The notes under the pieces: model-generated
Told to the model about the DNA's origin: nothing
Databases searched by the model: none
Seen by the model: only the letters and a program-made list of their open reading frames with translations
Assembly: GCA_022827625.1 (NCBI GenBank)
Contig: JAJEIE010000040.1
Span: 62,001 to 126,000, forward strand
Length of the DNA stretch: 64,000 nucleotides
Reading direction: 5' to 3'
From: Candidatus Poribacteria bacterium
Lineage (GTDB): Bacteria > Poribacteria > WGA-4E > WGA-3G
Part shown: piece after piece, positions 17,406 to 33,751 of the stretch
How the letters are laid out: each line of letters opens with the position of its first letter
Position numbering within the stretch: the first letter of the stretch is position 1
Made by a program: the position numbers and the translations under genes

Positions 17406-17418
17406 TAAAAAAAAATAA

Positions 17419-17446
17419 TGCAACCTTTTGAAACTTAAGTTACGTC
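17419..17446 (+). promoter_or_regulatory. ECF-sigma-type promoter candidate (TGCAAC-18-CGTC), copy 1
   Basis: TGCAACCTTTT with AAC at 17422-17424 is followed after exactly 18 bp by CGTC at 17443-17446. The same sequence and spacing, including the upstream AAAAATAA, occurs before the third sigma gene (30479-30506). ECF promoters commonly carry AAC in the -35 and CGT(C) in the -10. It lies 80 bp before the STAS gene of the sigma-1 unit. Confidence 0.55.
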
Positions 17447-17526
17447 ACTACAATCAATGGATATTAAATTACAGTCAAATCGCTACTTACAAACGCAACA
17501 AAACTTTAAAGAAAGAGGAGCCAATC

Positions 17527-17940: not shown

Positions 17941-18150
17941 ATGCGCTTTCTAATGATTAACCTAATTCTTGTTTGTTTGTTACTGTTCGGTATCGGTTAT
18001 CTTGCTTTCGGCGATACTGCAGAAATCAGAACCGGGCTTGAATCGGACACTTACCTATACGTTCACAATGCAGAGGATACGGCTTGGAAAGCGTCTTTTG
18101 AAACATTGGAAAGTCGCGAGCGGAGCTCGCTCCTACAAGAAGAGGCATAA
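17941..18150 (+). CDS. Small membrane or secreted protein, 69 residues
   Basis: The ATG at 17941 has AAAGGAG 8 bp upstream. The N-terminus MRFLMINLILVCLLLFGIGY is a strong transmembrane segment or signal, followed by a short polar tail. The end of the tail (SRERSSLLQEE) is translated from a palindromic repeat (18116-18130), so the natural gene may have been shorter or was truncated. It sits between the STAS gene and the first sigma-propeller gene and should be co-transcribed with both. No family is recognised. A regulatory role toward the sigma factor is conceivable but purely positional. Confidence 0.5.
   Translation: MRFLMINLILVCLLLFGIGYLAFGDTAEIRTGLESDTYLYVHNAEDTAWKASFETLESRERSSLLQEEA
18116..18130. 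repeat. GCGAGC-GGA-GCTCGC palindrome within coding sequence
   Basis: A perfect 6-bp-arm palindrome in the context TCGCGAGCGGAGCTCGCTCC forms the 3' end of the small ORF. Confidence 0.6.
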
Positions 18151-18208: not shown

Positions 18209-21200
18209 ATGGAATGGAACGATGCTGAACTCATCAAACAAATTTTACGAGGCGATCAAGACGCATTCGGTCCCTTGGTTCGGAAATATCAGAAAGGAGT
18301 TCACGCACTGGTGTGGCGGAAGATTGGCGATTTTCACATCGCACAAGAGATTACACAGGACGCTTTTCTCAATGCCTATCGGAAGCTCAGAACTTTGAAA
18401 AACCATAACCAATTCGCCGGATGGCTGTATGTCATCGCCGCAAACTTATGTCGCGACTGGCTCCGAAGGAAACGTTTACCTATGGAATCCATAGATGTTG
18501 ATGATACAAATGAGGTGGATAAGGTGTCATATTCTAAATACTTGGCAGAAAAACAAGAAGCCGATGCCGATGAAACGCGTCGTGAGGTCGTCAAGGAGCT
18601 CCTCCAAAAACTACCCGAAAGTGAACGCACTGTGATGACGCTCCACTACCTCGGTGAGATGACAATCAAAGCCATCAGCGAGTTCCTCGGTGTCTCCCAG
18701 AATACCGTCAAAAGCAGACTCAGCCGCGCCCGAAACCGTTTGCGGAACGAGGAAGATGTCATCCAGCAGAACCTCGGCAGTTTCCAACTCCCACCGCAAC
18801 TGACAGAGAACATCCTACGGGAAGCTGCGCGTATCACACCTGTTGCCCCGACCACAAGTAAACCGGTGGTCCCGTGGGTGATTTCCGCTGCCTCAGCCGT
18901 CTTGATTTTCATATTCGCAGGCGTTGGCACGCAATATCTCTCCCGTTTTCAGGAACCCTATAACCTTAACGCCGTCTCGGAACCGACGGTTCAGGTGATT
19001 GATGCTGTTTTTATTTATGACTCCCCCGCGAAACCCGCGATCCGGAATCAACCGGGAAGTTCCATTGCACCGGGAAAAGGTCTCGGCGCAGGGCAGAAAC
19101 CCGAAAAATCTCTCGTTGCCACGTTACCCATCGACACGACAGATGTTTCGATACCGAAACCGCAATGGACCCAAACCAAGGGGCCTCAAGGTGCCCCAAT
19201 CAACCGCCTCTTCGCAGCAGCCAACGGCGATCTTTACGCCAGAACAGATACTGATCTCTATAGATTGGCAGACGATGGAACCCTATGGCATCTCATCAAT
19301 GCTGACATGTCGGCTAACGGATCCTGGCATATAACAGAGCATGATAACCTCCTTTATGCTGTCTCTGATACAGAAGTTCTCACTTCAATAGATAGAGGTG
19401 AAACATGGGATGCCTTGGGAACGCGTCCAGAAGGGCAATTCGTCGGCATTGTAATGACAGATGAGGCCACTGGGGCGCAAGCCGATATTGTAATGTATTT
19501 GGGACTTGTTGATGGCATATACCGTTCTGCCGATGCCGGTAAATCGTGGGCATCTCTGAACAACGAAGAACTGATAGGTAAGAAGATTCAAGCAATCACT
19601 GCTATCGAAAACAGTGTGTTTGTCGGAACTGATAATGGACTCTATCGCCGTCATTTTGACGGTTGGGAACAGGTACGGGTAGGCGAGATTTCTAAGAATA
19701 TTCGAGCATTGGCGAGTGCTGAGCATCGGCTTTATGCTGCCGTAGGCAGCGCGGTTAAGAATCAGGACGTTTCGAGCATTATGTCAATACAAATAAAAAA
19801 CAACGACTCTTTACTCCTTTATCGCTCAACGGATTTAGGGGATTCGTGGCAGGCGTTAGAAAATTTTATGGAAGCAATTACTTCAGACAGTGTGGAAACA
19901 GCCCCTTCAGACAATTCGGAGAAAATTAGTTTCTCAATTAGTGGTACATCTAACGTGCAGGAAACGGAAGCCACTTCGGACCTCAAAATGGTAGCCTCAC
20001 AAGAAAACCTTTGGGTCATAGACCGCACGGATATTTATACCTCAAATGACGCAGGTGAAACTTGGGTTACCTGGAATCCAGATACCTCAGATGTGGGCGT
20101 TGTTTCCACGGTTGCGCCTTTAGATGCCAGGACACTTTATAAAAGCGGAGAGTTTGGGATTTATCGTACAACCGATGCTGGCAAAACATGGCATCAATTT
20201 AACACGGGATTGGTAAAAACGACCGTGATGAACTTAGTTTCCACACATAAGCGGCTCTACGCCAACACGGGACGCGTCTTTGTTACCTCTTATGATGGTG
20301 GTGAATCGTGGACACCTGTTCAGGGGACCTACACTCCCCTCACGAGTCTTGCCAAATTCAATGGTACTATCTACGCCAGAGGCCACAGCGGAATGTCGCC
20401 GCAACTTTTCCTTCTATCTACTGAAGACAACGAAGTAATCCCTGTGCCTGGAATGCCTATTTTGGGACCGCAAATAGGTGAAGAAATTAAGGACGCGCTT
20501 TCAGAGATAATTCCAGATGACGTTGAGAAAGACGCTGAAGAGAAGACGGAGCCAAACTTCAAAGATTTGGATGTAGAGGATTACAATGAAGTCATAGCGA
20601 ATAGCATAGTGATGTTTTTGCGATCCCTCTTCGGGAATTTTGCCGTCAGCGGCTCTACTTACTATATGGAAACTGAAGGCAGACTCTTCAGATGGAAACT
20701 CGGCGAGACGGAATGGGTTGATACCGGACTCGTAGATGAGGGCCCGTCAGTTGATTCTTTTACCAGCCTTACTGATTACAATATCGTCCACGCCTCCCTC
20801 GCTGTTTCAGGGAGAACCGTCTACGTCGGTAAACGAGATGGGCACCTCTTTCAATCGTTTGACGAGGGAGAAACGTGGAACGATGTTACGGGAGAACTTC
20901 CGTTTTCTTTTCAGCATTTCAAGGCAGTCAAATTCGCTGGGGCCACTATTTACGTGGCAACCGATAAAGGAGTTGCATTTTCAACCGACGGGACCGACTG
21001 GTACGCGGCAACCGATCTGGAAGGCACACCCATCGTTATAGAAAGATTTGCGGTGGACGGGCCAACGCTGTATGGCACCAGCGAGCAATGGGTGTATCAA
21101 TTGAATGGGAATTCTGGGATATGGCGACAGGTTGCGCCGGAAATTCCAATGCCTATTATCTCGCTTGCTGTTGATGGGAACACACTTTATGTCGGGACCG

Positions 21201-21235
21201 AAGGCAGCGGCGTACTACGTTTTAAACTTAATTGA
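18209..21235 (+). CDS. ECF sigma factor fused to transmembrane segment and beta-propeller (copy 1)
   Basis: This 1,008-residue protein begins with a complete ECF sigma factor: region 2 (about 13-80, DAFGPLVRKYQKGVHAL and AQEITQDAF) and region 4 (about 135-180, LPESERTVMTLHYLGEM and NTVKSRLSRARNRL). A single transmembrane helix (about 219-242, PWVISAASAVLIFIFAGVG) leads into a conserved juxtamembrane stretch with PAKPAIRNQ. The remaining 700 residues contain about eight Asp-box/BNR repeats, for example TSIDRGETW, RSTDLGDSW, TTDAGKTW and SFDEGETW, as in Ycf48-like and sialidase-type propellers. Predicted topology puts sigma inside and the propeller outside. GGAGGAGG precedes the ATG. It follows the STAS and small-protein genes. 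Confidence 0.92.
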   Translation: MEWNDAELIKQILRGDQDAFGPLVRKYQKGVHALVWRKIGDFHIAQEITQDAFLNAYRKLRTLKNHNQFAGWLYVIAANLCRDWLRRKRLPMESIDVDDTNEVDKVSYSKYLAEKQEADADETRREVVKELLQKLPESERTVMTLHYLGEMTIKAISEFLGVSQNTVKSRLSRARNRLRNEEDVIQQNLGSFQLPPQLTENILREAARITPVAPTTSKPVVPWVISAASAVLIFIFAGVGTQYLSRFQEPYNLNAVSEPTVQVIDAVFIYDSPAKPAIRNQPGSSIAPGKGLGAGQKPEKSLVATLPIDTTDVSIPKPQWTQTKGPQGAPINRLFAAANGDLYARTDTDLYRLADDGTLWHLINADMSANGSWHITEHDNLLYAVSDTEVLTSIDRGETWDALGTRPEGQFVGIVMTDEATGAQADIVMYLGLVDGIYRSADAGKSWASLNNEELIGKKIQAITAIENSVFVGTDNGLYRRHFDGWEQVRVGEISKNIRALASAEHRLYAAVGSAVKNQDVSSIMSIQIKNNDSLLLYRSTDLGDSWQALENFMEAITSDSVETAPSDNSEKISFSISGTSNVQETEATSDLKMVASQENLWVIDRTDIYTSNDAGETWVTWNPDTSDVGVVSTVAPLDARTLYKSGEFGIYRTTDAGKTWHQFNTGLVKTTVMNLVSTHKRLYANTGRVFVTSYDGGESWTPVQGTYTPLTSLAKFNGTIYARGHSGMSPQLFLLSTEDNEVIPVPGMPILGPQIGEEIKDALSEIIPDDVEKDAEEKTEPNFKDLDVEDYNEVIANSIVMFLRSLFGNFAVSGSTYYMETEGRLFRWKLGETEWVDTGLVDEGPSVDSFTSLTDYNIVHASLAVSGRTVYVGKRDGHLFQSFDEGETWNDVTGELPFSFQHFKAVKFAGATIYVATDKGVAFSTDGTDWYAATDLEGTPIVIERFAVDGPTLYGTSEQWVYQLNGNSGIWRQVAPEIPMPIISLAVDGNTLYVGTEGSGVLRFKLN

Positions 21236-21261
21236 TGGTGGGGCATTATTCCGAGATATTC

Positions 21262-21317
21262 GTAGCATAAACTGTTAGTTTGTGCCCATACGAACGCAAA
21301 CTAACAGTTTGCGCTAC
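21262..21317. repeat. 56-bp palindromic element (AACTGTTAGTTTG family), copy A
   Basis: The left arm GTAGCATAAACTGTTAGTTT (to 21285) is mirrored by a right arm ending AACAGTTTGCGCTAC (21295-21317) around a short centre. It could fold into a long hairpin. Related copies are at 21423, 24934, 26023 and 33685. Confidence 0.85.
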
Positions 21318-21389
21318 AAAAGAGACACTTTATGAGACAAAAAGTTGGTTTCTGACAACCAAAAACTGAAAAAAAGGAGATTTAAAAAA

Positions 21390-22691
21390 ATGTTAAAAAC
21401 GATTGAAAGATCCAAACCGATTGTAGCGCAAACTGTTAGTTTGCGTCGCAGATTGCACAAACTAATGGAACGTACATTGCTGTTAGCAACTTTGTCCATA
21501 GCAATGGGCTTGGCACTGCCGATCCACGCAGGTACACATCAGCTCCTCTTTGATGAGGATGCGATTAAAGACCCTGGCAGTTTGATCGTAAAACTTCAAG
21601 ACACGCGGGCACCGGTATCCCAATTTATTGCATCCCAATTGTCCGAAGATATGCAGTGGATATTACTCGGATACGATGGCGCAAGCAAACCAACACCTCA
21701 GCAGCAGAAGGTCCTACTGTCAGACCTAAATCAACTGCTGCAAATAGGTTCTCTCTACGATGCGCAACGGTTCGCCGATATTCAGCTCAGCGATCAGACG
21801 CTGGCACTCCTCACACAAAATCCACAAGATGAGGAAACATTGGTGCGCCTAAACCGGTCCCTCTTAGCAGATGTCTATCCTTACGAACTCGCCTCGCTTT
21901 CGGCACAGCAAAATTCTGAGGTGTCCAAAGGGATTGAAACGTGCAGAGAGAATTTGCGGCAGATCAAACGCGCCCTTGAGGACTACCAGGCTTCCAACAC
22001 CGGGGCATATCCACAATGGCTCTCCGAACTCTCTCCAGAATATCTGGAGAAGGGGATGCTTCTCTGTCCAGCGGATGCAACAGCAGGGGAGCCCGGTGTC
22101 TTAACCGAAGGTGCCTCCGACCCAACGCTGCCGTGTAGTTATCTCTATGAGATTTGGGCTTCTGAGAAAGAGAGTCAACAAATGCTATGGACACAGGAAG
22201 GCGATATGACACCTATCGTTCGATGTGAACACCATCGTCTCAACCTCAGTCTTAGTGGAAAACTCTATCGTAACGGACCACAGAGAGACATCTATAATAG
22301 CAATAAGATGGGGCTCTCCGCACTTGGTGACGTTGTGCATGACTTACGTAAACAACGCGGAGACGCGTTTCTCAAGACCCAAGAAGGTCGAGAGAAGATC
22401 AAACAAGCCACTGAAGAATTATTCTTCAAACAATTCGTGCCGACACTGCTGAATGCTTTGGCAGATGAAGTTTACACACAACTTGAGGCACAACTCGGCA
22501 AAGGCATTCTCGAGACCCCAATGGGGATGGGTATACTCAAACAAGCCATCCCGAAGATAGAAAATCAAATTAAGGAACAACTGCGGTCGCAACTTGAAGC
22601 GCAACTCGGAACGGAGTTTTTTACGACAAAAGAAGGAAAAGAGATACTTCAGCAGTTATCGGTATTGACGTTACCTGAAGGCGGAAAATAA
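21390..22691 (+). CDS. Exported protein with pseudopilin-like Cys motif, function unknown
   Basis: The ATG at 21390 has AGGAG 9 bp upstream. A TTG 45 bp earlier was rejected. The protein has 433 residues. Residues 11-30 (VAQTVSLRRRLHKL) are translated from a palindromic repeat inserted just before a signal peptide (LLLATLSIAMGLALPIHA). A central segment, CRENLRQIKRALEDYQ followed by GAYPQWLSEL and LLCPAD, resembles the C-terminal half of type II secretion pseudopilin-like proteins with two Cys. The C-terminal third is helical with repeated QLEAQLG. It lies between the first sigma-propeller gene and an ABC permease. No function can be assigned. Confidence 0.7.
   Translation: MLKTIERSKPIVAQTVSLRRRLHKLMERTLLLATLSIAMGLALPIHAGTHQLLFDEDAIKDPGSLIVKLQDTRAPVSQFIASQLSEDMQWILLGYDGASKPTPQQQKVLLSDLNQLLQIGSLYDAQRFADIQLSDQTLALLTQNPQDEETLVRLNRSLLADVYPYELASLSAQQNSEVSKGIETCRENLRQIKRALEDYQASNTGAYPQWLSELSPEYLEKGMLLCPADATAGEPGVLTEGASDPTLPCSYLYEIWASEKESQQMLWTQEGDMTPIVRCEHHRLNLSLSGKLYRNGPQRDIYNSNKMGLSALGDVVHDLRKQRGDAFLKTQEGREKIKQATEELFFKQFVPTLLNALADEVYTQLEAQLGKGILETPMGMGILKQAIPKIENQIKEQLRSQLEAQLGTEFFTTKEGKEILQQLSVLTLPEGGK
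21423..21467. repeat. Palindromic element (AACTGTTAGTTTG family), copy B, right arm degenerate, inside CDS
   Basis: A perfect left arm GTAGCGCAAACTGTTAGTTT (21423-21442, continuing GCG) is followed by a decayed right arm (GCACAAACTAATG). It is translated in frame as part of the N-terminus of the exported protein starting at 21390. Confidence 0.8.
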
Positions 22692-22731
22692 ATGAAGCTT
22701 AAGAATTTAATTCGATAATATTCCAACGCCC

Positions 22732-22788
22732 GGATGCCTGAACTTGTTCAGGGCAGTACACACAGTCCCAAACAAGTTTGGGCATCCT
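22732..22788. repeat. Palindromic element GGATGCC..GGGCATCC
   Basis: The outer arms GGATGCC and GGGCATCC enclose inner palindromes TGAACTTGTTCA and CCAAACAAGTTTGG. A half copy (GGATGCCCGAACTTGTTCGG) occurs at 47101. It lies between the exported protein and the ABC permease. Confidence 0.7.
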
Positions 22789-22842
22789 CCAAAAGTGATG
22801 AGAAATTACCTTAACAAAACAAAAAACAGAGGAGAAATTACC

Positions 22843-24288
22843 ATGTTAATGACATTGATACAAAAAGAGATAATGCATCATATTCTAAGCGTTCGGTTCG
22901 TCGCACTCCTGCTGATGTGTGTTTTGCTTATCCCATTGACCCTTTCTATCAATTACCGTAGGTATAACCAGAATTTCGTTGACTATCAGGAAGCCGTGAA
23001 GCGGACACGGACAGAAGCAAAAGAGAATCCACCGAGCGCACCGGATCCAAACACGGAAGTTTCTAAGCTCTTCCTCAAACCCACGCCGCTGAGCGTCTTT
23101 GCAAACGGTTTGGAAGAAGCACTCCCGACCTATCTTGGGATGACCCGTAATGGCGTGCGGCAAGGTTCAGCAGGCGTTTCTCAGGCATCCGTGGCGTATG
23201 CACTCGGGAACCTTGATTTCTTGTTTATTGTCGGGACGGTTTTCAGTCTGCTCGCGCTTCTGTTTACGTGTGATGCGGTTGCAGGGGAGAGAGAGGCGGG
23301 AACACTCCGGATAAACCTGTCAAATCCGCTGCCGCGAGATGTATTTTTGTGGAGCAAGCTGATCGGTGGATACATTGTGTTTGTGGTCCCATTTTTAATA
23401 TCTTTCCTTCTGGGGTTACTCCTAATCGTCGGGCAAGGATTTCCGCTGGGTGATCTTAAAGTTGCACTGTCAGTGTTAGGTCTCACGCTTATCTCGTTAC
23501 TCTATATTGCTGTGTTTTTTGCGATAGGCGTGGTCATTTCGACCTATCTGGACAACGCCAAGACGGCACTGATTATCGCTTTTACGTTTTGGGTGTTTGC
23601 CGTACTGATTGCGCCCCGCGGCGCGTTTGTCGTCGCGAAACTCGTCGCACCCACTCGGACACAGCAGGCGGTTTATATGGAAAAAACCGCACTTCGCAAC
23701 AATCTGAATAAAGATAAGGATGAGAAGCTTAGTGAAAAAATGGCGCTGGCTTTCGGTAACGGCGGGGGTGGCATGAGTATTAACTTAGGTGACCCAGAGA
23801 CGCAAAAAAAATTGGATAAGCTCAGAGGACCGATTGATGAGCAGTTTCGACTGGAGTTCCAGAATCAAGCAGGCAAAATTGATCGGGACTATCAACGTGA
23901 AAAGGATCGACAAGAGCAAGTCGGCGAGATGCTCTCTCGGATCACACCAACCGCCTCACTCACCTATTTTGCGATGAACCTTACACAAACAGGCAAGTTA
24001 AAAAGGGACACCTACTTTCAAACGGGTGAGCGGTACTACGACCAACTTGAAGATTCGTATTTCAGCGAAATTTCAGATGACATGCTTGCGCAATTTATGC
24101 AAATTGCGAATCAGGCGAATACTGATTCTGAATCCGAGACAGACAAGATCCTGCCGCCGCCAACACTGACAGAACCTTCTGTATCGGACACATTGCGTCG
24201 TTCTGCGATAGATGTGCTTTTACTCGGTTTTTTCGCTGTAGTGTTCACGACAGTGGCGTTCTTAAAGTTCTTCCGATCTGATATTTGA
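22843..24288 (+). CDS. ABC-2 type transporter permease (NosY/GldF-like)
   Basis: This 481-residue membrane protein starts at the ATG at 22843, with GAGGAG 8 bp upstream. Helix 1 (about 15-36) is followed by a long extracytoplasmic loop, then a cluster of helices (about 128-290) containing the ABC-2 hallmark CDAVAGEREAGTLRINLSNPLPR. A second large hydrophilic loop with GNGGGGMS (about 300-440) and a last helix near the C-terminus complete it. This layout is typical of permeases that pair with a separate ATPase for export or lipoprotein/gliding functions. No ATPase gene is adjacent. It is downstream of the first sigma-propeller gene and probably in its unit. Confidence 0.85.
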   Translation: MLMTLIQKEIMHHILSVRFVALLLMCVLLIPLTLSINYRRYNQNFVDYQEAVKRTRTEAKENPPSAPDPNTEVSKLFLKPTPLSVFANGLEEALPTYLGMTRNGVRQGSAGVSQASVAYALGNLDFLFIVGTVFSLLALLFTCDAVAGEREAGTLRINLSNPLPRDVFLWSKLIGGYIVFVVPFLISFLLGLLLIVGQGFPLGDLKVALSVLGLTLISLLYIAVFFAIGVVISTYLDNAKTALIIAFTFWVFAVLIAPRGAFVVAKLVAPTRTQQAVYMEKTALRNNLNKDKDEKLSEKMALAFGNGGGGMSINLGDPETQKKLDKLRGPIDEQFRLEFQNQAGKIDRDYQREKDRQEQVGEMLSRITPTASLTYFAMNLTQTGKLKRDTYFQTGERYYDQLEDSYFSEISDDMLAQFMQIANQANTDSESETDKILPPPTLTEPSVSDTLRRSAIDVLLLGFFAVVFTTVAFLKFFRSDI

Positions 24289-24318
24289 GGTACTACTGTT
24301 CCATCCAGTTTCAAAATT

Positions 24319-24402
24319 GGAGGCGACCCCGTTTGTAGTAGGGCAATTTATTGCCCGTTGGGGAGGCGACCCCGTTTGTAGTAGGGCAATTTATTGCCCG
24401 TT
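24319..24402. repeat. Tandem direct repeat, two copies of 41 bp
   Basis: A unit beginning GGAGGCGACCCCGTTTGTAG and ending TTATTGCCCGTT occurs at 24319-24359 and again at 24362-24402. Each unit contains a GGGCAATTTATTGCCC palindrome that can form a hairpin. It follows the ABC permease gene. Confidence 0.85.
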
Positions 24403-24511
24403 AGGGACGTGCGATAATGCACTTCGCATTTAGGCGTGTACGCCGCAAAATCGCACTACTACGAACTAACCCTCAAATTCAAAATGGATAAAACCCTATG
24501 GAGGCATCTCC

Positions 24512-24667
24512 ATGAAACTGATTATTTCCTCACTCAGCGTATTACTCGTGCTCGGTATCTGCTCCGGGGCTCTGGCAAAAGCCCTAGCGACTGCGCTGAG
24601 AACTTCAATGCCGATTGGTTTGACCCTGCGTTTGCCTTACCCGTCTCTCCGTAGCCGCATCTTTTAA
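24512..24667 (+). pseudogene. Short secreted-peptide ORF, probably a frameshifted remnant
   Basis: An ATG at 24512 with GGAGG 8 bp upstream opens a 51-residue frame starting with a clean signal peptide, MKLIISSLSVLLVLGICSGA then LAKA. Just after the signal sequence the neighbouring frame reads SPSDCAENFNADWFDPAFAL and stops at 24654. That looks more protein-like than the Arg/Leu/Ser-rich tail of the annotated frame. A one-base slip in the GGCAAAAGCCC stretch would join the two, giving a secreted peptide of about 50 residues. Either it is a decayed gene or the sequence has an indel. No family is recognised. Confidence 0.4.
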
Positions 24668-24697
24668 CGACAATGTGGGGAGAAATCAAAATACGAG

Positions 24698-24855
24698 ACT
24701 AACGTTGAAAAGAAAATTTCATCGTAGGTCGGGTTGTCGGAATATTTTTATTTTTTTTTAAAAAATTATGCATCCTTTTCACCTCAAGATGGTATCTTAA
24801 GTAACGAGAGCTTGATACTAACGTTGAAAAGAAAATTTCATCGTAGGTCGGGTTG
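24698..24855. repeat. 39-bp direct repeat pair flanking an ECF-promoter-like segment
   Basis: ACTAACGTTGAAAAGAAAAT continuing to GTAGGTCGGGTTG is present at 24698-24736 and 24817-24855. The 80 bp between them carry a degenerate ECF-type promoter, and this interval is itself repeated at 25768-25850. Confidence 0.85.
24769..24796 (+). promoter_or_regulatory. Degenerate ECF-type promoter copy 2
   Basis: ATGCATCCTTTT with ATC (24772-24774) replacing AAC, then 18 bp, then TATC (24793-24796) replacing CGTC. The conserved CTTAAGT follows. It lies upstream of the secreted lectin-like gene at 25006. Activity is doubtful given both boxes differ. Confidence 0.35.
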
Positions 24856-24933
24856 AACGGGTGGTCGAGAACCCTATCCACGAACAATTATTGATATTGG
24901 GTTTAGCATGGGTTCGATAAAGGGTTTCTACGT

Positions 24934-24989
24934 GTAGCGCAAACTGTTAGTTTGCGCAGTACACCTAACAAACTAACAGTTTGTGCTAC
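24934..24989. repeat. 56-bp palindromic element (AACTGTTAGTTTG family), copy C
   Basis: The left arm GTAGCGCAAACTGTTAGTTT (continuing GCGC) and the right arm ending AACAGTTTGTGCTAC (24967-24989) end 16 bp before the lectin-like gene. The element overlaps the approach to that gene's ribosome site. Confidence 0.85.
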
Positions 24990-25005
24990 AATGAAAGGAG
25001 TTTCA

Positions 25006-25746
25006 ATGCGATTTGGTATGATAACATTACTTTTTTTCTTACCTCTTTCTGCCGCAGCAGGAACGTTTCTCGAAACTTTTGACAACAAAGAACTGGAAGA
25101 CTGGCAGGAACTCGTCCAGTTAAATAAAGTGCCCGCGCTTTGGGAGATCGTTAATGGTGAACTTGAGGTTGTCAATCGTAATACACATCTGCACTTCTTT
25201 ACGACTGGAGATGAGACGTGGGAAGACTATACCGTCGAATTTGACGTTAAGCCGACCAAAAAACACGGCATTGGTGGTATCGCGATTGCCGCACGCGTGA
25301 ACGAGTCTTGGTTGGTTTACTGTGCTGTCCGAGATATAGTGAACGCAATAGGTGATAAACCTCCGGTTCACGAGAGACAGATGGATTGTTTAACCGGTGA
25401 TTTACATGATACAGTGTTCGTACAAATCGCTACCGCGCCTCACCCACTTCTAAAATTGGATAAGTGGTCACACTTGAAGTTAGATGTCTCTCAAAATATC
25501 CTTACCTTCTGGGTTAATGAGGAACGAGTTATGGAACCTACGGAATTTCAGTTAGTTGAAGCCGTTAGAGAACAACTTGGGTTCCCTGAATTTCTGACAG
25601 GAGGTGCCGGTTTCGGATTAGCAAATTACACGGCGCGCCTTGATAATATTACGATCACCGGTGATAGCATTCCAAACAGGGGCAGGTTATCGGTAACATC
25701 CAAGGAAAAACTCGCGATAATATGGGGAGATTTGAAGCGGTTTTAG
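25006..25746 (+). CDS. Secreted concanavalin/LamG-like (DUF1080-type) protein
   Basis: This 246-residue protein starts at the ATG at 25006 with AAAGGAG 6 bp before it. Upstream in-frame codons (KLTVCAT) are repeat sequence and were excluded. A signal peptide (1-18, ending AAAG) precedes a beta-sandwich typical of DUF1080/LamG-type carbohydrate-binding folds: FLETFDNKELEDWQEL, WEIVNGELEVVN, YTVEFDVKP and GFGLANYTARLDNITI. It probably binds or processes a polysaccharide outside the cell. The extreme C-terminus KLAIIWGDLKRF matches tails of three other exported proteins here. It lies between the ABC permease and the second sigma-propeller gene. Confidence 0.75.
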   Translation: MRFGMITLLFFLPLSAAAGTFLETFDNKELEDWQELVQLNKVPALWEIVNGELEVVNRNTHLHFFTTGDETWEDYTVEFDVKPTKKHGIGGIAIAARVNESWLVYCAVRDIVNAIGDKPPVHERQMDCLTGDLHDTVFVQIATAPHPLLKLDKWSHLKLDVSQNILTFWVNEERVMEPTEFQLVEAVREQLGFPEFLTGGAGFGLANYTARLDNITITGDSIPNRGRLSVTSKEKLAIIWGDLKRF

Positions 25747-25767
25747 GAATTGGGACTGAACGAAAAT

Positions 25768-25850
25768 TCCGAATATTTTTATTTTTTTTTAAATTATGCA
25801 TCCTTTTTGCCTCAGGATGGTATCTTAAGTAATGAGATCTTGATATAAGG
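25768..25850. repeat. Second copy of the 24737-24817 segment
   Basis: CGAATATTTTTATTTTTTTT onward to GGTATCTTAAGTAATGAG and CTTGATAT repeats the interval at 24737-24817 with few changes, including the promoter-like motif. Confidence 0.8.
25797..25824 (+). promoter_or_regulatory. Degenerate ECF-type promoter copy 3
   Basis: ATGCATCCTTTT (ATC 25800-25802), 18 bp, then TATC (25821-25824), followed by TTAAGT. It lies about 307 bp upstream of the second sigma-propeller gene, with two repeat elements in between. Confidence 0.35.
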
Positions 25851-25917
25851 TGAAAACGTTCTATAAATTGTCGCAGCCGTGCTAAAATAGCAGGAATATA
25901 AGGATAACCCATCTGTT

Positions 25918-25960
25918 TATAATAGTGAATTCTATAATTAATTGAACACTTCTATTATAG
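25918..25960. repeat. Partial copy of TIR element (TATAGTG..ATAATTAATTG)
   Basis: TTATAATAGTGAATTCTATA then ATTAATTGAACAC resembles the left end of the element at 34594-34710, and CTATTATAG follows as a short inverted arm. The rest of the gap 25747-26130 holds further palindromes such as GCGATGCACATCGC. Confidence 0.55.
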
Positions 25961-26022
25961 CGCGATGCACATCGCATGAATCAACGGTATGAAGTGCTTA
26001 TGCACTTCCCCGGAGCGAGTAC

Positions 26023-26079
26023 GCCGCAAAACTGTTAGTTTGCGTGCCACCTATACACAAACTAACAGTTTGTGGTACA
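26023..26079. repeat. 56-bp palindromic element (AACTGTTAGTTTG family), copy D
   Basis: The left arm CGCAAAACTGTTAGTTTGCG (26025-26044) and right arm CACAAACTAACAGTTTGTGG onward to 26079 lie 52 bp before the second sigma-propeller start. Confidence 0.85.
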
Positions 26080-26130
26080 GGTGTTCATATATTTTCCTGC
26101 TTTACTATGAATTCCTTAAGGAGCCTTCTG

Positions 26131-29058
26131 ATGGAAAGAGAAAACGATGTTCAACTGATTCATGAAATTTTGTCTGGAAACGATGAGGCGTTCGGGACTT
26201 TGGTTCGGAGACATCAAAAAGGTGTTCACGCACTCGCATGGCGAAAAGTCGGTGATTTTCATGCTGCTGAGGAGATTACACAAGACACTTTCCTTCAGAT
26301 ATATAAGAAACTCGCCCAACTCAAGAATCCACATCAGTTTTCGGGATGTATGTATGTAATTGCCAGTCGATTGTGCCTTAAATGGATTCGGCAAAACAGA
26401 GTTATCACGCAATCGTTGGACGACACAGACACCGGAGCAGTAGAGAAAGTCTCTTATAGCCGTTATGTATCCGATCAACGCGAAATGGAAAATACTGAAC
26501 ATCGTCGCGAGCTTGTCAAAAAACTGCTATCAAGGCTGCCGGAGAGTGAGCGTACAGTGGTGACACTCCACTATCTCAGCGAGATGAAGGTAAAGGAAAT
26601 TGGGAAGTTCTTAGGTGTATCGGCAAACACGATTAAAAGTCGGCTCCGTCGCGGACGTAAGCGTTTACAAGAACAGGGGGAAGAAGTCCTGGTTCGCGAA
26701 ACACTGCAAGGGATCCAATTCCCTGCCGATGTAACGGCGCGCATTATGCGTCAAGTCGCTGACATGAAACCGACTCCCGCCCCGGTTGGAAAGCCGTTGT
26801 TGCCGTGGGCAGCTCTCGGGACGGCTGCAATTCTGGTTGTATTGATATTCGGTGCAAGCCAACAATATCTGACTCGATTTCAGAAACCTTACAGTTTCGA
26901 GGCGGAAGCTGAACCGACCATCGAAATTATTGATGCCTTTGTTGTCCTTGATACGCCAGCGAAACCGGCTGTGCGAAATCAGGTCGGACGCGACGCGACA
27001 CCCGGTAAAAATAGTAGCATTGGCACGCCAACCGCTGATACAACCACAACGTCTGCTGCATCAGCGGATGCTAATACGTTTTCTACGGCACAATGGACGC
27101 AGGGAAATGCCCCACCAGCGGGTTATGTCCGTAATATCTTTGCTACATCTGATGGAGATCTCTATACCGTTTCACCAACAGGCATATACAGAGCGTCAGT
27201 AGATGCGACGCGATGGACGCGGGTCAGTACGGATGTCCCATATACTTACGATCCGATGCCGATAGTAGAATATAATAGAGTGCTTTATATTGTTTCTGAG
27301 GATGAGGTATTTACTTCAGCGGACAGGGGAGACACGTGGCAGACTTTGGGACCCCGACCCAAGGGACGTGCCGTTGGATTCGTAATCACCGACGTGCCTG
27401 AACAGCAAGATGTCCCTGCAGATATGACAATGTATCTTGCCGTGAGAGAGACGGGGATTTTTCGATCGACAGACAACGGGACACAATGGAAGTCTTTCAA
27501 CAACGGCTTGGCGGATAGAATCATGACTGCAGCGGCGAATATTGAAGAAACGGTATTTGTTGGGACAGAGAGCGGTCTCTACCGTCTTGCGTCAGATACT
27601 TGGGAAAAACTACCGCTGGGCACTTCGGATGCGGTCTGTTCTTTGACGGTGTCTGAGAACAATCTCTATGCCGGTACAGCGCCTGAAATCTTAGTCAGAT
27701 TCCCCCTCCCAATTGACGTAGAGCAGGCAGCGGAGGAAGAGGAGAGAAGGGAGTATTCGGTGCGGAGTTTTCGTTCCGCCGATTTGGGAGACTCGTGGAC
27801 TGAAATCATGCATGTCCATACATCTCGACCCATAATGCTACCTTCTGGTGTAATGGTTTTGGAGGTTGGGGAGACGCTCTTGGTGTTAGGGGTCTTTCCC
27901 TCGCGTTCCACAAATGGCGGACAAACGTGGACAAAACTCGAATTTGACCAGCATTTTACAACAGTCAGCAGTTTGGGAGTTGCGGCAGTGAACGAACGGA
28001 CGTTTTATAAAGTCGGCGTATTTGGAATTCATCGCACGACCGATGCCGGTGATTCGTGGCACTTATTTATGGATGGGATGCTGGGAACGAGAATGAGAGA
28101 ATTAGTTGGGTTCAACGATAGGCTATACGCATTTACGGGGTATGAGGTACATGAATCAACCGACAGCGGTGCCTCTTGGAAGAAAGTTCGGATTGATGGA
28201 GAGGATAACGCTGGCATTGATTACAATCATGATTCAAAACTGTTGGTTGATGGCGGAGTGCTTTATTTTGTTTTCCGTCCAAAGGACGAATTGCGAATTT
28301 GCCGTTTATCTGAAGAGGGTAATGTCCTAATCCCAATTCAAGGTGTGCCTGCTTTTGATGAAACCTTATCGCTTAAGTTATGGGAAGACGATAAAAAAGC
28401 GAAGGATGCTCAGTCATCTGACGGTGTTAACATGAGTTATATCGTTTTTGAAGAAGAGGTAAGAAGCCAGACGACTACCGTCAGTGATGGAACGTTCTAT
28501 GTGGAATACAGACGCAGGCTTTTCAAATGGAAACCCGGCGACCCACAGTGGACCAATATGGGATTAGTAGACACCAGTCAATTGCTTGATGGCGATTTCA
28601 GAAACGGGTTCAAATTAGCGGCTTCGGGTGAAACCGTTTATGTTGGCAAAAGGGATGGGACGTTGTTTCAGTCGCTTGATGGTGGAAACAGCTGGCGAGA
28701 TGTTACGCCAAGTCTTCCGCTCCGTTTTACCCTATTCAAGGAAATCGTTTTTGTAGGTTCAACGGTTTACGTCGCAACAGATAAAGGCGTCTTGCGTTCA
28801 GAAACGGGGGCACACTGGCGTGTGTTGACCGATAACGCTGAAGCACGTCCGGTCATCGTTAAGTTCGCTGTGGATACGACTACGGTTTATGGCATGAGCG
28901 ATGAAGGTGCATATCGTTTGGATACGCACAATCAATGGGAAAAGATTTCGTCAAGAACGTTAGGCGAAGTTGCCTCTCTCGCGGTCATCAACAATAGACT
29001 CTATAGTGCCAGCAGAAATGATGGGCTATTTCACATCTCGCTTGCAGAAGAACAATAG
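26131..29058 (+). CDS. ECF sigma factor fused to transmembrane segment and beta-propeller (copy 2)
   Basis: This 975-residue paralogue is the most diverged of the three. The ATG at 26131 follows AAGGAG. In-frame codons further upstream are palindromic repeat and were excluded. Sigma region 2 (DEAFGTLVRRHQKGVHALAW, AEEITQDTF) and region 4 (LPESERTVVTLHYLSEM, NTIKSRLRRGRKRL) are intact. The transmembrane helix is PWAALGTAAILVVLIFGA, followed by SRFQ-like TRFQKPY and PAKPAVRNQ. The propeller has Asp boxes such as RSADLGDSW, RTTDAGDSW, ESTDSGASW and QSLDGGNSW. It is followed 42 bp later by a MacB-like permease. The upstream promoter-like copy is degenerate, so its expression control may differ from copies 1 and 3. 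Confidence 0.92.
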   Translation: MERENDVQLIHEILSGNDEAFGTLVRRHQKGVHALAWRKVGDFHAAEEITQDTFLQIYKKLAQLKNPHQFSGCMYVIASRLCLKWIRQNRVITQSLDDTDTGAVEKVSYSRYVSDQREMENTEHRRELVKKLLSRLPESERTVVTLHYLSEMKVKEIGKFLGVSANTIKSRLRRGRKRLQEQGEEVLVRETLQGIQFPADVTARIMRQVADMKPTPAPVGKPLLPWAALGTAAILVVLIFGASQQYLTRFQKPYSFEAEAEPTIEIIDAFVVLDTPAKPAVRNQVGRDATPGKNSSIGTPTADTTTTSAASADANTFSTAQWTQGNAPPAGYVRNIFATSDGDLYTVSPTGIYRASVDATRWTRVSTDVPYTYDPMPIVEYNRVLYIVSEDEVFTSADRGDTWQTLGPRPKGRAVGFVITDVPEQQDVPADMTMYLAVRETGIFRSTDNGTQWKSFNNGLADRIMTAAANIEETVFVGTESGLYRLASDTWEKLPLGTSDAVCSLTVSENNLYAGTAPEILVRFPLPIDVEQAAEEEERREYSVRSFRSADLGDSWTEIMHVHTSRPIMLPSGVMVLEVGETLLVLGVFPSRSTNGGQTWTKLEFDQHFTTVSSLGVAAVNERTFYKVGVFGIHRTTDAGDSWHLFMDGMLGTRMRELVGFNDRLYAFTGYEVHESTDSGASWKKVRIDGEDNAGIDYNHDSKLLVDGGVLYFVFRPKDELRICRLSEEGNVLIPIQGVPAFDETLSLKLWEDDKKAKDAQSSDGVNMSYIVFEEEVRSQTTTVSDGTFYVEYRRRLFKWKPGDPQWTNMGLVDTSQLLDGDFRNGFKLAASGETVYVGKRDGTLFQSLDGGNSWRDVTPSLPLRFTLFKEIVFVGSTVYVATDKGVLRSETGAHWRVLTDNAEARPVIVKFAVDTTTVYGMSDEGAYRLDTHNQWEKISSRTLGEVASLAVINNRLYSASRNDGLFHISLAEEQ

Positions 29059-29100
29059 ATAGTTCATGATGAACGCCAATTCTTCCAACGCCTCCAAACC

Positions 29101-30354
29101 ATGAAGTTGTACGAAGGATTTTCAACAGGATTCTTTGTGATTCGGCAGGAAAAAATGCGGTCGGCACTCACAATGCTCGGCATCGTCATCGGGGTTGCTG
29201 CCGTCCTCGCCATGCTCGCTATTGGTGAGGGCGCGAAACGGATCGTCATGCAAGAGTTTGAAAAATTTGGCGGACACTTTATGGTGAGACGGAATCCTTG
29301 GATCTGGCGCGGCGACCGCGTGTTCCCAAACCGTAGCGGTGAACATCTGAAGTACGAAGATGTCTTAGCCATTGAAGCCGAATGTCCTGCTGTTGAATCT
29401 GTGGTACCCAGCGTCTCTTCTGAAATCCTCGCACAGACCGGGGGTGGCGCATCGAAATGGACAGAATACAACGGTGTTAATTCCCACTTTCCGATTGGGA
29501 TGCAGTGGCACATTAAACAGGGACGCTTCTTCTCCAAGGATGAGTTCAACAATCGCAGGAAAGTCTGTCTCCTTGGCTTAGAAGTCGCGACAGAACTCTA
29601 TGGAGATCAAAACCCGATTGGAAAAGAAATCAAACTCTCGATGCAAGGTGGCAGACCTGATCGTTTTCTCATCTTGGGGGTAATGGCGGAACGCGGCACC
29701 AGCCTCCAATACGGATTCAGTTGGGACGATGTCGTCTTCATCCCTTTGACGACCGCGCAAGACAGGTTTAAAGGGAAGCACTATGTCAACTATATCAACG
29801 TCAGGGCAATAGACGCTGATTCTGTCGAGAAAGCCGCTGAGGAAGTCAAAGCCGTTCTTAGAAAACGCCATCGAAATCGAGACAACTTTTTCGACATTAG
29901 TTTCGCAACCGCAGCAGTCCAAGAACTCGATAAGATCAGTCGCATTATCAAAATTATGCTGAGCAGCATTGCTGGATTTTCGTTGTTTGTTGGGAGCGTC
30001 GGCATTATGAACATGATGCTGGTTTCAGTGAATCAACGTACCCGTGAAATTGGCATCCGCCGCGCCATTGGGGCGAAACGGGGAGACATTTTCTTCCAGT
30101 TTCTGATTGAGGCGGTTGTGATGTGTGGTATCGGAGGTTTATTAGGTATTAGTCTCGGCATCGGTATTGGGTATGGCTGTTCCCACATCGCTGTAAAAAT
30201 CGTTAAAGTGATTCCACACTGGCCCGTTGTGATCTCGCTTGAATGGATGGCAGTTTCTGTCAGCATATCAGCCTTTATCGGTATCGTTTTTGGACTCTAT
30301 CCGGCAGTAAGAGCCTCACAAATCTCGCCTATTGAGGCACTGAGAACGGAATGA
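29101..30354 (+). CDS. MacB/FtsX-type ABC transporter permease
   Basis: This 417-residue protein has one N-terminal helix (about 20-42, SALTMLGIVIGVAAVLAML), a periplasmic MacB-type core domain (about 45-265), and three C-terminal helices with the FtsX-type signature NQRTREIGIRRAIGAKRGDI. Members use an ATPase partner to drive periplasmic work such as macrolide or lipoprotein handling without moving substrate through the membrane. No ATPase is encoded next to it. No ribosome site is evident before the ATG. It starts 42 bp after the second sigma-propeller gene, so it is probably read from the same transcript. Confidence 0.88.
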   Translation: MKLYEGFSTGFFVIRQEKMRSALTMLGIVIGVAAVLAMLAIGEGAKRIVMQEFEKFGGHFMVRRNPWIWRGDRVFPNRSGEHLKYEDVLAIEAECPAVESVVPSVSSEILAQTGGGASKWTEYNGVNSHFPIGMQWHIKQGRFFSKDEFNNRRKVCLLGLEVATELYGDQNPIGKEIKLSMQGGRPDRFLILGVMAERGTSLQYGFSWDDVVFIPLTTAQDRFKGKHYVNYINVRAIDADSVEKAAEEVKAVLRKRHRNRDNFFDISFATAAVQELDKISRIIKIMLSSIAGFSLFVGSVGIMNMMLVSVNQRTREIGIRRAIGAKRGDIFFQFLIEAVVMCGIGGLLGISLGIGIGYGCSHIAVKIVKVIPHWPVVISLEWMAVSVSISAFIGIVFGLYPAVRASQISPIEALRTE

Positions 30355-30478
30355 ATTGTAAGGTCTGCTCGCGCTCGTATAAACGGCTTTAGAAATCTAC
30401 GATCTTATCCCCTCTTCCCTCCTTCCATTGTTTCTAACGGCATCAATTTCCTGTACTAATGTCAATTCAAAAAAATAA

Positions 30479-30506
30479 TGCAACTTTTTGACACCCAAAA
30501 TCCGTC
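30479..30506 (+). promoter_or_regulatory. ECF-sigma-type promoter candidate (TGCAAC-18-CGTC), copy 4
   Basis: TGCAACTTTTTG (AAC 30482-30484), 18 bp, then CGTC (30503-30506), followed by ACTTAAGTT. The boxes, spacer length and upstream AAAAATAA match copy 1. It lies only 36 bp before the third sigma-propeller start, as expected for autoregulation. Confidence 0.6.
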
Positions 30507-30541
30507 ACTTAAGTTAAAAGACGGTAGCAAGGATACTGGTG

Positions 30542-33500
30542 ATGAAGCGGAACGACATTGAACTCATTCAACAGGTATTACAAGGCGACCCAGACGCATT
30601 CGCGCCTTTGGTTAAAAAATACCAGAAGGGGGTTCACTCGCTTGTGTGGCGGAAGATCGGCGATTTTCACACCGCACAAGAGATTACACAAGACGCGTTT
30701 CTTAAAGCATACCAGAAACTCGGAACCTTGAAAAATCATAATCAATTTCCGGGGTGGCTGTATGTCATCGCTGCAAACTTATGCGCGGACTGGTTCCGAA
30801 AGAATCCGCTACCAGAACAATCCTTAGAGATTACCGAAGCAAACGAGGTGGCACAGGTGTCATATTCCAGATACATGGCTGAACAACAGGCGACGGATGC
30901 TGACGAATCACGTCGCGAGATTGTTAAGAAGCTCCTCCAAAAACTACCGGAGAGTGAACGGACTGTGATGACGCTCTATTATCTTGGCGAGATGACAATT
31001 AATGCCATCAGTGAGTTTCTCGGTGTCTCCCCGAATACCGTCAAGAGTCGTCTCAGTCGCGCACGCAACCGTTTAAAGAAGGAGGAACACATGATCCGAC
31101 AGAATCTTGCCAGTTTCCAATTGCCTACAAATTTAACAGAGACCATCATGCAAGAAGTCTCGCGTCTCGCACCCGTTGGACCCGCTGGAAACAAACCGAT
31201 GGTACCGTGGGTTGTTTCTGCTACCTCAGCCGTTTTGATTTTCCTATTGATGGGGAGCGGCGTGCAGTACCTCTCCCGTTTTCAGAAACCCTACAACCTA
31301 AACGCCACATCTGAAGCGACAGTCGAAATTATTGAAGCGACTTTTGTCTTGAATTCACCGGCGAAACCCGCGGTGCGGAATCAGACTGGAAATTCAAGCG
31401 TTCCCGGTCAGAGTCCCGGAGCAGGTCAGCAACCTGATACACTGCTTTTTGCTGCGCTACCCGTCGATGAAGCAGCAGAGGTCTCAACGCCGGAACCGCA
31501 ATGGGTGCAAACAAAGGGACCCGAAGGTGGGCATGTCAACACGCTTTTTGTAACAAGGAGCGGGGATGTTTACGCTGGAACAGGACCAGATCTCTATAGA
31601 CTCGGAGATGATGGAAGTATATGGAACCTAATTAATTCCAGCGAGGCATTTGACGGTTCGTGGCAGATGGTAGAAGGAAACAATACGCTCTATGTTGTTT
31701 CCGAGAGGGATGTCCGTACTTCCGTAGATAGAGGTGAGACATGGAATTTACTCGGTGCGCGTCCAGAAGGTCAGTTGATTGGCAGTGTCATAACCGATGA
31801 AGCGTTTTACTTAGGACTTGCCGATGGTGTCTTCCGTTCCATAGATGCAGGTAAATCTTGGGTCTCTGTAACCAGCGATGTGGCGGGTAGGAAAGTCCGT
31901 GCGCTCACTGCTGTTGGGAATACCGTATTCGTGGGGACTGATGCTGGACTCTATCGTCTCGATTCGGACAGTTGGAGGCAATTACCGGTGAATGGTGAAA
32001 CCGCGAATATCCGAGCGTTGGTAAGTAGCGAACACCGGCTCTACGTGATTGTAGGCGAGGAGGTTAAAAATCAGGTAACTTCGGAACTCATGTCAATGCT
32101 GACGACGCGTAAGGCTTCGCTGTCGCTTTACCGATCGACAGACTTGGGGGATTCTTGGCAAGCCATAGCACCTGAGAACATCCTTCCGATGAAAACATCT
32201 GGATTTACCTTTGGGACATCTGACACAAAAACGGAGCCGACACCCAGCATCAAAATGGTTGCACGTCAAGAAAGTCTTTTAATCTTAGATAGTGGCCGCA
32301 GTTATTACTCAACGGATGCGGGTGAAACTTGGACTGCCTTGCATTCAAGTTATTCAGACATGGATAAACCGCCTGTTGTTGTGATGTCAGCAGAAAACAC
32401 CTTCTACAGAGCCGGACGAGACGGTGTTCATCTCACGACGGATGCCGGTAAAACATGGCAACAAGTTAACACGGGATTGGTGAATACTTCCATCGGGAAT
32501 TTAGTCGCTGTTCACGGAAACCTCTATGCAAACATTGGTCATGTACTACTCTCTTCGTCTGACGGTGGCGAATCGTGGACACCTGTTCCCGGGAGTTCTG
32601 GGAACATCACAAGTATGGTGAAATTTAACGGTGTCTTCTATGCCAGGGGTGCCGACGGAATGCAGCCGCGCCTTTTCCGTTTGTCTGCTGAGGACAGCAA
32701 GTTGACGCCTATCCCTGGAGTGCCTGATATAGGAGATAGTGGATTTGATGAACGGTTCACTGAAGAAATCAACTTAGCACTTTTGGAGAGCATTGAAGGT
32801 GAAGAAGAGATAAACCTTGAAAAAGGTGAGAGATTAAACCCAGAACAGTTCGATGCAGAAACGTTCAATGAAGCCTACAGTAAGGTTGTAGAAAAAGTTA
32901 TGGCTAAGCAGCTTCGGTTTTTCCTTGGAGGCTTCGCTGTCAGCGATGGAACCTACTATATGGAAGCCGATCAGAAACTCTTTAGATGGAAACCCGGCAC
33001 AACTGAATGGTTCGACACGGGATTAATAGATAAAAGTGAATCTGCGTATGTTTTGAGTGAGTTTAATGACGTTGCTGATGTCGGTTTCAGAATGGCTGTA
33101 TCGGGTAGCACGGTTTACGTCGGGAAACGGGACGGACACCTCTTTCAGTCCTTTGATGAAGGAAATGCGTGGAACGATGTTACTGCGGATCTCCCGTTTT
33201 CTTTTACGGACTTCAAAGCGATTACTTTCGCCGGGTCAACTGTTTATGTCGCAACCGATGCTGGTGTGGCGTATTCAAGCGACGGAAGACAGTGGCATAT
33301 CGCAACCGATGGCGAAGGGACACAGGTTGTTGTGGAAAAACTCGCGACGGACGGTACAACCGTATATGGTACAACCGAAAAACGCGTGTATCAGTTAAAA
33401 GAGAACGCTGACACATGGAAACAGGTCACACCAGAAGTGCCAGGTACGATCACTGCCGTTACAATCGACGGCGATACCCTTTATATCGGAACTCTTGGTC

Positions 33501-33586
33501 GTGGCGTACTGCGTTTCACGCTTAACGGAACATTCGCGGATGATGAACAAGAGGGTGCCGCTGGCGATTCTGAAGTGGATGATTAA
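30542..33586 (+). CDS. ECF sigma factor fused to transmembrane segment and beta-propeller (copy 3)
   Basis: This protein of about 1,014 residues is closely related to copy 1. The ATG at 30542 is preceded by AAGGAT; a GTG directly before it is also possible. Sigma region 2 (DAFAPLVKKYQKGVHSLVW, AQEITQDAF), region 4 (LPESERTVMTLYYLGEM, NTVKSRLSRARNRL), transmembrane helix (PWVVSATSAVLIFLLMGSG) and the juxtamembrane SRFQKPY and PAKPAVRNQ are all conserved. The propeller carries Asp boxes TSVDRGETW, RSIDAGKSW, RSTDLGDSW, TTDAGKTW, SSDGGESW and QSFDEGNAW, and ends in an acidic tail. An ECF-type promoter lies 36 bp upstream. Confidence 0.93.
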   Translation: MKRNDIELIQQVLQGDPDAFAPLVKKYQKGVHSLVWRKIGDFHTAQEITQDAFLKAYQKLGTLKNHNQFPGWLYVIAANLCADWFRKNPLPEQSLEITEANEVAQVSYSRYMAEQQATDADESRREIVKKLLQKLPESERTVMTLYYLGEMTINAISEFLGVSPNTVKSRLSRARNRLKKEEHMIRQNLASFQLPTNLTETIMQEVSRLAPVGPAGNKPMVPWVVSATSAVLIFLLMGSGVQYLSRFQKPYNLNATSEATVEIIEATFVLNSPAKPAVRNQTGNSSVPGQSPGAGQQPDTLLFAALPVDEAAEVSTPEPQWVQTKGPEGGHVNTLFVTRSGDVYAGTGPDLYRLGDDGSIWNLINSSEAFDGSWQMVEGNNTLYVVSERDVRTSVDRGETWNLLGARPEGQLIGSVITDEAFYLGLADGVFRSIDAGKSWVSVTSDVAGRKVRALTAVGNTVFVGTDAGLYRLDSDSWRQLPVNGETANIRALVSSEHRLYVIVGEEVKNQVTSELMSMLTTRKASLSLYRSTDLGDSWQAIAPENILPMKTSGFTFGTSDTKTEPTPSIKMVARQESLLILDSGRSYYSTDAGETWTALHSSYSDMDKPPVVVMSAENTFYRAGRDGVHLTTDAGKTWQQVNTGLVNTSIGNLVAVHGNLYANIGHVLLSSSDGGESWTPVPGSSGNITSMVKFNGVFYARGADGMQPRLFRLSAEDSKLTPIPGVPDIGDSGFDERFTEEINLALLESIEGEEEINLEKGERLNPEQFDAETFNEAYSKVVEKVMAKQLRFFLGGFAVSDGTYYMEADQKLFRWKPGTTEWFDTGLIDKSESAYVLSEFNDVADVGFRMAVSGSTVYVGKRDGHLFQSFDEGNAWNDVTADLPFSFTDFKAITFAGSTVYVATDAGVAYSSDGRQWHIATDGEGTQVVVEKLATDGTTVYGTTEKRVYQLKENADTWKQVTPEVPGTITAVTIDGDTLYIGTLGRGVLRFTLNGTFADDEQEGAAGDSEVDD

Positions 33587-33684: not shown

Positions 33685-33740
33685 GTAGCATAAGCTATTA
33701 GTTTGTGCCATCCATTGCGTGAACGAACAGTTCGCGCTAC
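33685..33740. repeat. 56-bp palindromic element (AACTGTTAGTTTG family), copy E, diverged
   Basis: The left arm GTAGCATAAGCTATTAGTTT and right arm GAACGAACAGTTCGCGCTAC preserve the ends but differ inside. It ends 11 bp before the lectin-like gene at 33752. Confidence 0.75.
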
Positions 33741-33751
33741 AGAGGAAATAT

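Follow-up and report, generated by a model that had tools for sequence, protein, structure and literature searches.

How might a bacterium control an extracytoplasmic function (ECF) sigma factor when the factor and its putative sensor are encoded in one and the same reading frame? The question is raised by three genes, here called fusions A, B and C, in a stretch of 64,000 nucleotides from Candidatus Poribacteria bacterium (assembly GCA_022827625.1, contig JAJEIE010000040.1, positions 62,001 to 126,000 of the forward strand; hereafter the window). A first-pass annotation, made from the letters alone, described each product as ECF regions 2 and 4, a single helix and Asp-box repeats. Our answer, drawn from sequence comparison and held as probable though well short of certain, is that the three proteins are autoregulated, membrane-tethered ECF factors, i.e., one-chain transducers controlled by a periplasmic domain. 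Beyond the first-pass annotation we describe a fixed unit, swappable sensors, a shared promoter and free signal-peptide forms of the sensors.

The fusions and their conserved unit

Each of the three genes is a single uninterrupted frame (Table 1), and in each product Pfam recognizes Sigma70_r2 (E 2e-12 to 3e-10) and Sigma70_r4_2 (E 2e-16 to 3e-15) well over the curated cut-offs, with NCBIfam sigma70-ECF also over its cut-off. Regions 2 and 4 are the only sigma regions present, a feature of group IV ECF factors, and a profile built from 55 such fusion proteins matches SigW in the PDB (E 4e-34). About 40 residues past region 4 follows one strong hydrophobic segment (residues 220-241, mean Kyte-Doolittle 1.98-2.23), and then an Asp-box part of about 690 residues with seven Asp-boxes per protein, where Pfam detects BNR, sortilin and PSII_BNR repeats. 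Frames, Pfam matches and hydropathy thus confirm the domain order given by the first-pass annotation, and the intact sigma, helix and repeats in single frames support its proposal of a one-chain sensor-sigma layout. A frameshift or assembly artefact is ruled out, since intact fusions with this domain order are found more than 100 times in independently assembled Poribacteria genomes, some of them single-contig chromosomes.

Structure prediction, which the first-pass annotation had suggested as a check, was run on fusion A with AlphaFold2 and gave an all-helical head, a helix and an all-beta tail (mean predicted local distance difference test score, pLDDT, of 73.5), the collar and spacer being disordered and the sigma and propeller parts better modelled. 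The top Foldseek matches to this model are GH74 double propellers (E 1e-18), and the Bacteroides periplasmic sensors BT4663 and BT4673 are also found (E ~1e-15). The latter are hybrid two-component sensors that appear to share the layout of outer sensor and inner regulator, but their output is a histidine kinase whereas that of the fusions is a sigma factor. The outer part of A, B and C consists of GH74/sortilin-like Asp-box blades, probably in two propellers; the double-propeller fold is likely rather than proven because the global superposition on GH74 is loose (TM-score by target 0.45-0.48, root-mean-square deviation 9-10). The likeness to GH74 xyloglucanases is seen in the propeller part of the fusion A model. 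In a check for the GH74 catalytic aspartates, profile matches to 2cn2/2cn3 tracked the Asp-boxes only and were out of register, and so speak neither for nor against enzyme activity.

The host genome (5.0 Mb) has 43 sigma region 2 matches, among which one close clade containing the window genes accounts for 24 frames. Eighteen of these 24 paralogues bear the helix and share a conserved unit made of sigma, a 38-residue linker, the membrane helix and a 45-residue extracytoplasmic collar. The linker carries a conserved helix, LTENIMR (residues 198-207), followed by a proline-tryptophan edge before the membrane helix, and the collar follows the consensus QYLxRFQKPYSFEAxSEPTxEIIDAxxVLxxxxKPAVRNQxG whatever domain stands behind it. 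All 18 collars in the genome lie in frames that also hold sigma. Over 129 fusions, mean pairwise identity is 67-70% in sigma regions 2 and 4 and 34% in the linker between them; it is 52% in the collar, 48% in the cytoplasmic linker, 46% in the membrane helix and 23% in the adjoining spacer.

Behind the collar, the 18 helix-bearing paralogues carry an Asp-box propeller (8), Kelch repeats (2), leucine-rich repeats (LRR) with or without a GHL15-like domain (3), a redoxin (1), a Big_5-bearing part (1) or an unassigned domain (3), and these outer domains keep many invariant residues. The paralogues of the same clade that have neither helix nor collar end in a winged helix-turn-helix (HTH) domain (2), a helical domain, an M61 peptidase, a short tail or a propeller (1 each); fusions to domains of cytoplasmic type (DnaN, FtsZ, winged HTH) lack both helix and collar. 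Because the tree of the sigma part, in which many inner branches are weak, unites neither the Kelch fusions nor the LRR fusions, and nests the HTH pair (united at 100/98) within an otherwise helix-bearing clade, the outer domain has probably been exchanged, with helix and collar lost upon a switch to a cytoplasmic-type domain.

The search of other genomes that the first-pass annotation had recommended reveals a large Poribacteria family. The linker-helix-collar module occurs in 68 of 85 Poribacteria genomes with 1 to at least 58 copies each; every genome of the window genome's family has it, most genomes in two other families of the order have 1-3 copies, and none is found further out. Most of the remote copies already have the same architecture, and some order-level relatives look WD40-like behind the collar. 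In a GTDB scan for the propeller fusion, all 77 loci among the matches listed belong to Candidatus Poribacteria, several of them on chromosome-size contigs. Many Candidatus Poribacteria are sponge-associated. These proteins are not mentioned in a sponge metaproteome study or in two Poribacteria genome papers, and we found no account of tethered Poribacteria fusions in the literature searched, the main ECF classification papers lying outside that search.

The orientation of the chain was judged from the same 129 fusions. Net charge is about +1 over the 24 residues before the helix and -1 over the 24 after it, and cysteine makes up 0.76% of the N-terminal 200 residues vs. 0.19% after residue 260. 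Signal peptides are present on two free relatives of the sensors, both under the shared promoter described below: one, with LRR, is 47% identical to the L043 sensor over 607 residues, and the other, of Kelch type, matches the L034 sensor at 41% identity over 357 residues. Since charge bias, cysteine depletion and these signal peptides agree, we infer that sigma lies inside and the sensor outside, in line with the first-pass suggestion that the C-terminal part faces outward.

Shared promoter and candidate regulon

Most paralogues are preceded by an ECF-type promoter of the form ATTATGCAAC/CC-N17-18-CGTCA(C/T)TATA or -GTGTCTTTAA, in short TGCAAC/TGCACC, N17-18, CGTCA or tGTCTTT. The sites in the window (Table 1) come from a weight matrix built on the paralogues, with fusion C but not A or B in the training set; as 3 of the 16 training sites were mis-registered at -10, our conclusions rest on a strict pattern. 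This pattern has 43 matches in the genome vs. 5 for its reversal. It stands before 45 of 107 fusion genes of other Poribacteria, mostly 40-120 bases upstream of the start, where 0.15 are expected and 1 is seen on the opposite strand. Across the 85 genomes, promoter count follows module copy number with a Spearman coefficient of 0.88 (0.31 for the reversed control), and in genomes with at least 8 module copies the coefficient is 0.68 vs. 0.15 for the control.

Two -10 classes can be distinguished, CGTCA(C/T) and tGTCTTT, and sigmas of the same class are more alike than in any of 1000 permutations, a likeness that kinship partly confounds; the classes are perhaps two sub-specificities of the sigma family. 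Taken together, promoter placement, the correlation of counts with copies and the likeness within -10 classes argue that the sigmas are active, autoregulated and overlapping in specificity. Most paralogues stand under one promoter type, so their outputs probably overlap. The first-pass annotation had noted different export genes beside each copy, which holds, and had read the three as parallel pathways, which this shared promoter makes improbable.

Where the promoter stands before something other than a fusion gene in this genome, the gene immediately following mostly encodes an exported or membrane protein: LRR, Kelch and FG-GAP proteins, four PD40 proteins and one WD40 protein, a lipoprotein, a 3-keto-disaccharide hydrolase-like protein and two ABC-2 permeases. 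Two STAS proteins, an M16 peptidase and an NtrC-type protein depart from this trend. A Pfam tally of immediate downstream genes vs. genes 4-5 away yields no single dominant partner family, and crude signal-peptide counts (34 of 62 immediate downstream genes vs. 34 of 104 genes 4-5 away) are suggestive only.

Mode of control

Membrane-fused ECF factors have been described before, and comparison with them frames the question of mechanism. ECF52 (SCO4117 of Streptomyces coelicolor) consists of sigma, a zinc finger, a transmembrane (TM) helix and an extracytoplasmic carbohydrate-binding part, and a release model has been proposed for it (PMC5826349). Like the Poribacteria fusions it is a single chain, and a promoter of its own contains a putative promoter motif, but a zinc-finger (anti-sigma) domain lies between sigma and helix, and it is described only from Actinobacteria, with one member in S. 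coelicolor (PMC5826349). The Poribacteria fusions, in contrast, have no zinc finger, a different conserved linker and collar, exchangeable outer domains and tens of copies. ECF48, ECF53 and IutY are likewise membrane-fused and carry a fused anti-sigma domain; release has been shown for IutY and is expected for ECF48/53 (PMC8999054). No such domain was found in the Poribacteria fusions: the HxxxCxxC motif is present between region 4 and collar in 0 of 129 fusions, with no Pfam zf-HC2 match, so a fused zinc-finger anti-sigma is ruled out. The TM helix followed by an extracytoplasmic extension, as in ECF48/52/53, is predicted here too. ECF57 (WD40-bearing; PMC8999054) also has propeller-type repeats in its C-terminal extension, but its conserved cysteine pair linking sigma2 and sigma4 is not conserved in the fusions (region 4 has no cysteine in 103 of 129), which have a membrane helix and collar. 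Judged against reviews and one research paper, the Poribacteria fusions would thus act like the ECF48/52/53 and ECF57 types yet probably belong to none, because the zinc finger and the cysteine pair are missing.

Proteolytic release of sigma, which the first-pass annotation had offered as a possibility, seems plausible, and an M50 protease, a candidate for the second cut, is encoded in the genome. The tether would keep sigma away from RNA polymerase or its promoters until a ligand or partner of the outer domain triggered cleavage near the collar or helix, by a site-1 protease and then by the M50 site-2 protease; the freed sigma would transcribe its own gene together with exported-protein and permease genes. 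Given that a number of outer domains are similar to exported proteins whose genes stand under the shared promoter, the outer domain may sense, as a feedback, the export of regulon proteins or their ligand. More tentatively, and as an idea we would not yet back, the tens of tethered ECFs per genome with one promoter specificity could form a self-monitoring family, whose outer domains are captive copies of regulon exports, whose state or ligand is read through one-chain sigma release, and whose sensors are swapped by recombination behind the fixed unit.

Release is not the only conceivable output. It is unlikely, though worth serious attention, that sigma works while membrane-bound in the manner of ToxR/CadC, an outside ligand altering the linker helix so that sigma binds RNA polymerase and promoters at the membrane with no proteolysis. 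The linker of ~38 residues with its conserved helix could pass on a conformational change, no anti-sigma domain needs to be destroyed, and two TM-less paralogues (L016 and L034_3322) retain the linker helix, which fits a cleavage-independent regulatory element. However, the described membrane-fused ECFs (IutY and the ECF52 model) are thought to act by release (PMC8999054, PMC5826349), and the sequence itself favours neither.

The chance that control is exerted in trans, with the fused domain only localizing the factor and a separate partner such as a STAS partner switch gating sigma, seems small. The operon of fusion A, which stands under the shared promoter, does open with a STAS gene, and homologues are placed likewise ahead of paralogue L016 and of fusions in L058 and L059, but these are the only 4 distinct loci of the kind among more than 100 fusions, and the many invariant residues of the outer domains speak for more than localization. 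STAS genes may add a partner-switch layer in some copies. The first-pass statement that no anti-sigma gene lies beside the three copies therefore stands for zinc-finger anti-sigmas (none adjoins A, B or C, and all 6 zf-HC2 loci of the genome are directly behind stand-alone ECF genes), but it passes over this gene of anti-anti-sigma type.

It is very improbable that both domains are cytoplasmic and the hydrophobic segment something other than a membrane helix: one paralogue does join sigma to a propeller with no helix, yet the helix is retained in 129 fusions, charge bias and cysteine depletion fit an N-in/C-out chain, and free sensor homologues have signal peptides. Hardly credible is the idea that sigma is a relic on a surface-protein family and no longer directs transcription, which the very large copy number and diverse attached domains might suggest, since nothing else in the protein is as conserved as the sigma regions and the ECF promoter stands before the genes and scales with their copy number.

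Several points weigh against a tethered, sensor-controlled sigma itself. Sigma activity and topology are read from sequence and correlation, and cleavage and ligand are postulated. The link between promoter and sigma is correlative and inflated by shared ancestry, and for 10 of the 23 paralogues of the genome the strict pattern is not matched within 900 bases (several of these have near matches). The outer flank of the helix, too, bears positive residues (RFQKP). At L034:3322-6078 (-), sigma and propeller are kept with neither helix nor collar, the linker helix running straight into the propeller; thus either the helix is dispensable in some copies or this one is defective. Finally, no free protein encoded in this genome is closely related to the Asp-box propellers, which leaves Kelch and LRR as the basis of the captive-copy idea.

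If the fusions are indeed tethered one-chain transducers, they would represent a one-protein signalling layout at very large scale that needs no separate anti-sigma, and the plug-in site for outer sensors would make them a natural kit for building sigma-based receptors. How tethering alone silences an ECF and what uncultured Poribacteria sense would become testable, and one would expect exported propeller, Kelch and LRR proteins to form a regulon across the phylum. The GH74 counts reported for Poribacteria (cited in PMC6081418) might in part reflect such sensors rather than enzymes.

Neighbouring genes and related fusions

Table 1. Positions in the window of the fusions, their promoters and adjoining genes (aa, amino acids; all on the forward strand).
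Feature	Position	Description
ECF-type promoter	17416..17450 (+)	TGCAAC-N18-CGTCAC; operon STAS - small protein - fusion A
STAS-domain protein	17527..17868 (+)	anti-anti-sigma type; first gene in operon of fusion A
Small protein	17941..18150 (+)	69 aa; hydrophobic segment at N terminus; no match to a Pfam family; follows STAS gene and precedes fusion A
Fusion A	18209..21235 (+)	1008 aa; ECF sigma residues 8-180, linker, TM helix 220-241, collar 240-285, Asp-box propeller part 320-1008
Exported protein	21345..22691 (+)	448 aa; downstream of A, conserved behind A orthologues
ABC-2 type permease	22744..24288 (+)	downstream of A; same gene class behind orthologues L057, L059 and under promoter at L234, L242
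ECF-type promoter	24766..24800 (+)	upstream of exported non-sigma protein
Exported 3-keto-disaccharide hydrolase/lectin-like protein	24952..25746 (+)	candidate target; behind promoter 24766..24800
ECF-type promoter	25794..25828 (+)	upstream of fusion B
Fusion B	26131..29058 (+)	layout as fusion A; 975 aa from ATG; GTG alternative at 26044 (+29 aa)
MacB/FtsX-type permease	29101..30354 (+)	downstream of fusion B
ECF-type promoter	30476..30510 (+)	upstream of fusion C
Fusion C	30542..33586 (+)	layout as fusion A; 1014 aa
Exported protein	33719..34531 (+)	weak LamG-like similarity; 132 bases 3' of fusion C

The sigma fusions L033 and L028 contain segments that are also found in the exported protein encoded downstream of fusion A. 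Further downstream of fusion C, the window encodes two Omp85-superfamily proteins with a weak DUF4252-like part (34729-37020 and 38387-40846), and it also holds an S41/Prc-type protease with a PDZ domain (10367-11917, minus strand); Prc acts on IutY elsewhere (PMC8999054). PADLOC gave no match, and thus there is no sign of a known defence system.

TM-less sigma fusions to housekeeping proteins were seen as well. In sigma-FtsZ (403 aa; L037:5058-6269 (-), in the window's own genome C15:47060-48268) an ECF sigma is in frame with an FtsZ/tubulin GTPase domain (Pfam E 1e-40), with full-length matches at 64-95% identity in more than 40 Poribacteria genomes, including single-contig ones, and a separate normal FtsZ in the own genome at C15:86422. 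In sigma-DnaN (577 aa; L038:2871-4604 (+), own genome C20:13070-14800) the partner is a complete DnaN beta clamp with its three Pfam domains; the gene adjoins MacB-type permeases, separate DnaN genes exist, and full-length or near full-length matches are found in many genomes of the phylum. A 1350-aa protein from a three-contig genome (L284:520-4572 (+)) joins, according to Pfam, ECF sigma, a complete FtsZ and PHP/DNA polymerase III alpha domains, and its counterpart in a single-contig genome is a single frame of 1366 aa (L285:467-4567 (+)); frames of about 1350-1450 aa matching the first 397 residues of the sigma-FtsZ query occur in about 30 genomes. A related TM-less ECF sigma is joined to WD40 propellers in a protein of 866 aa (L286:483-3083 (+)).

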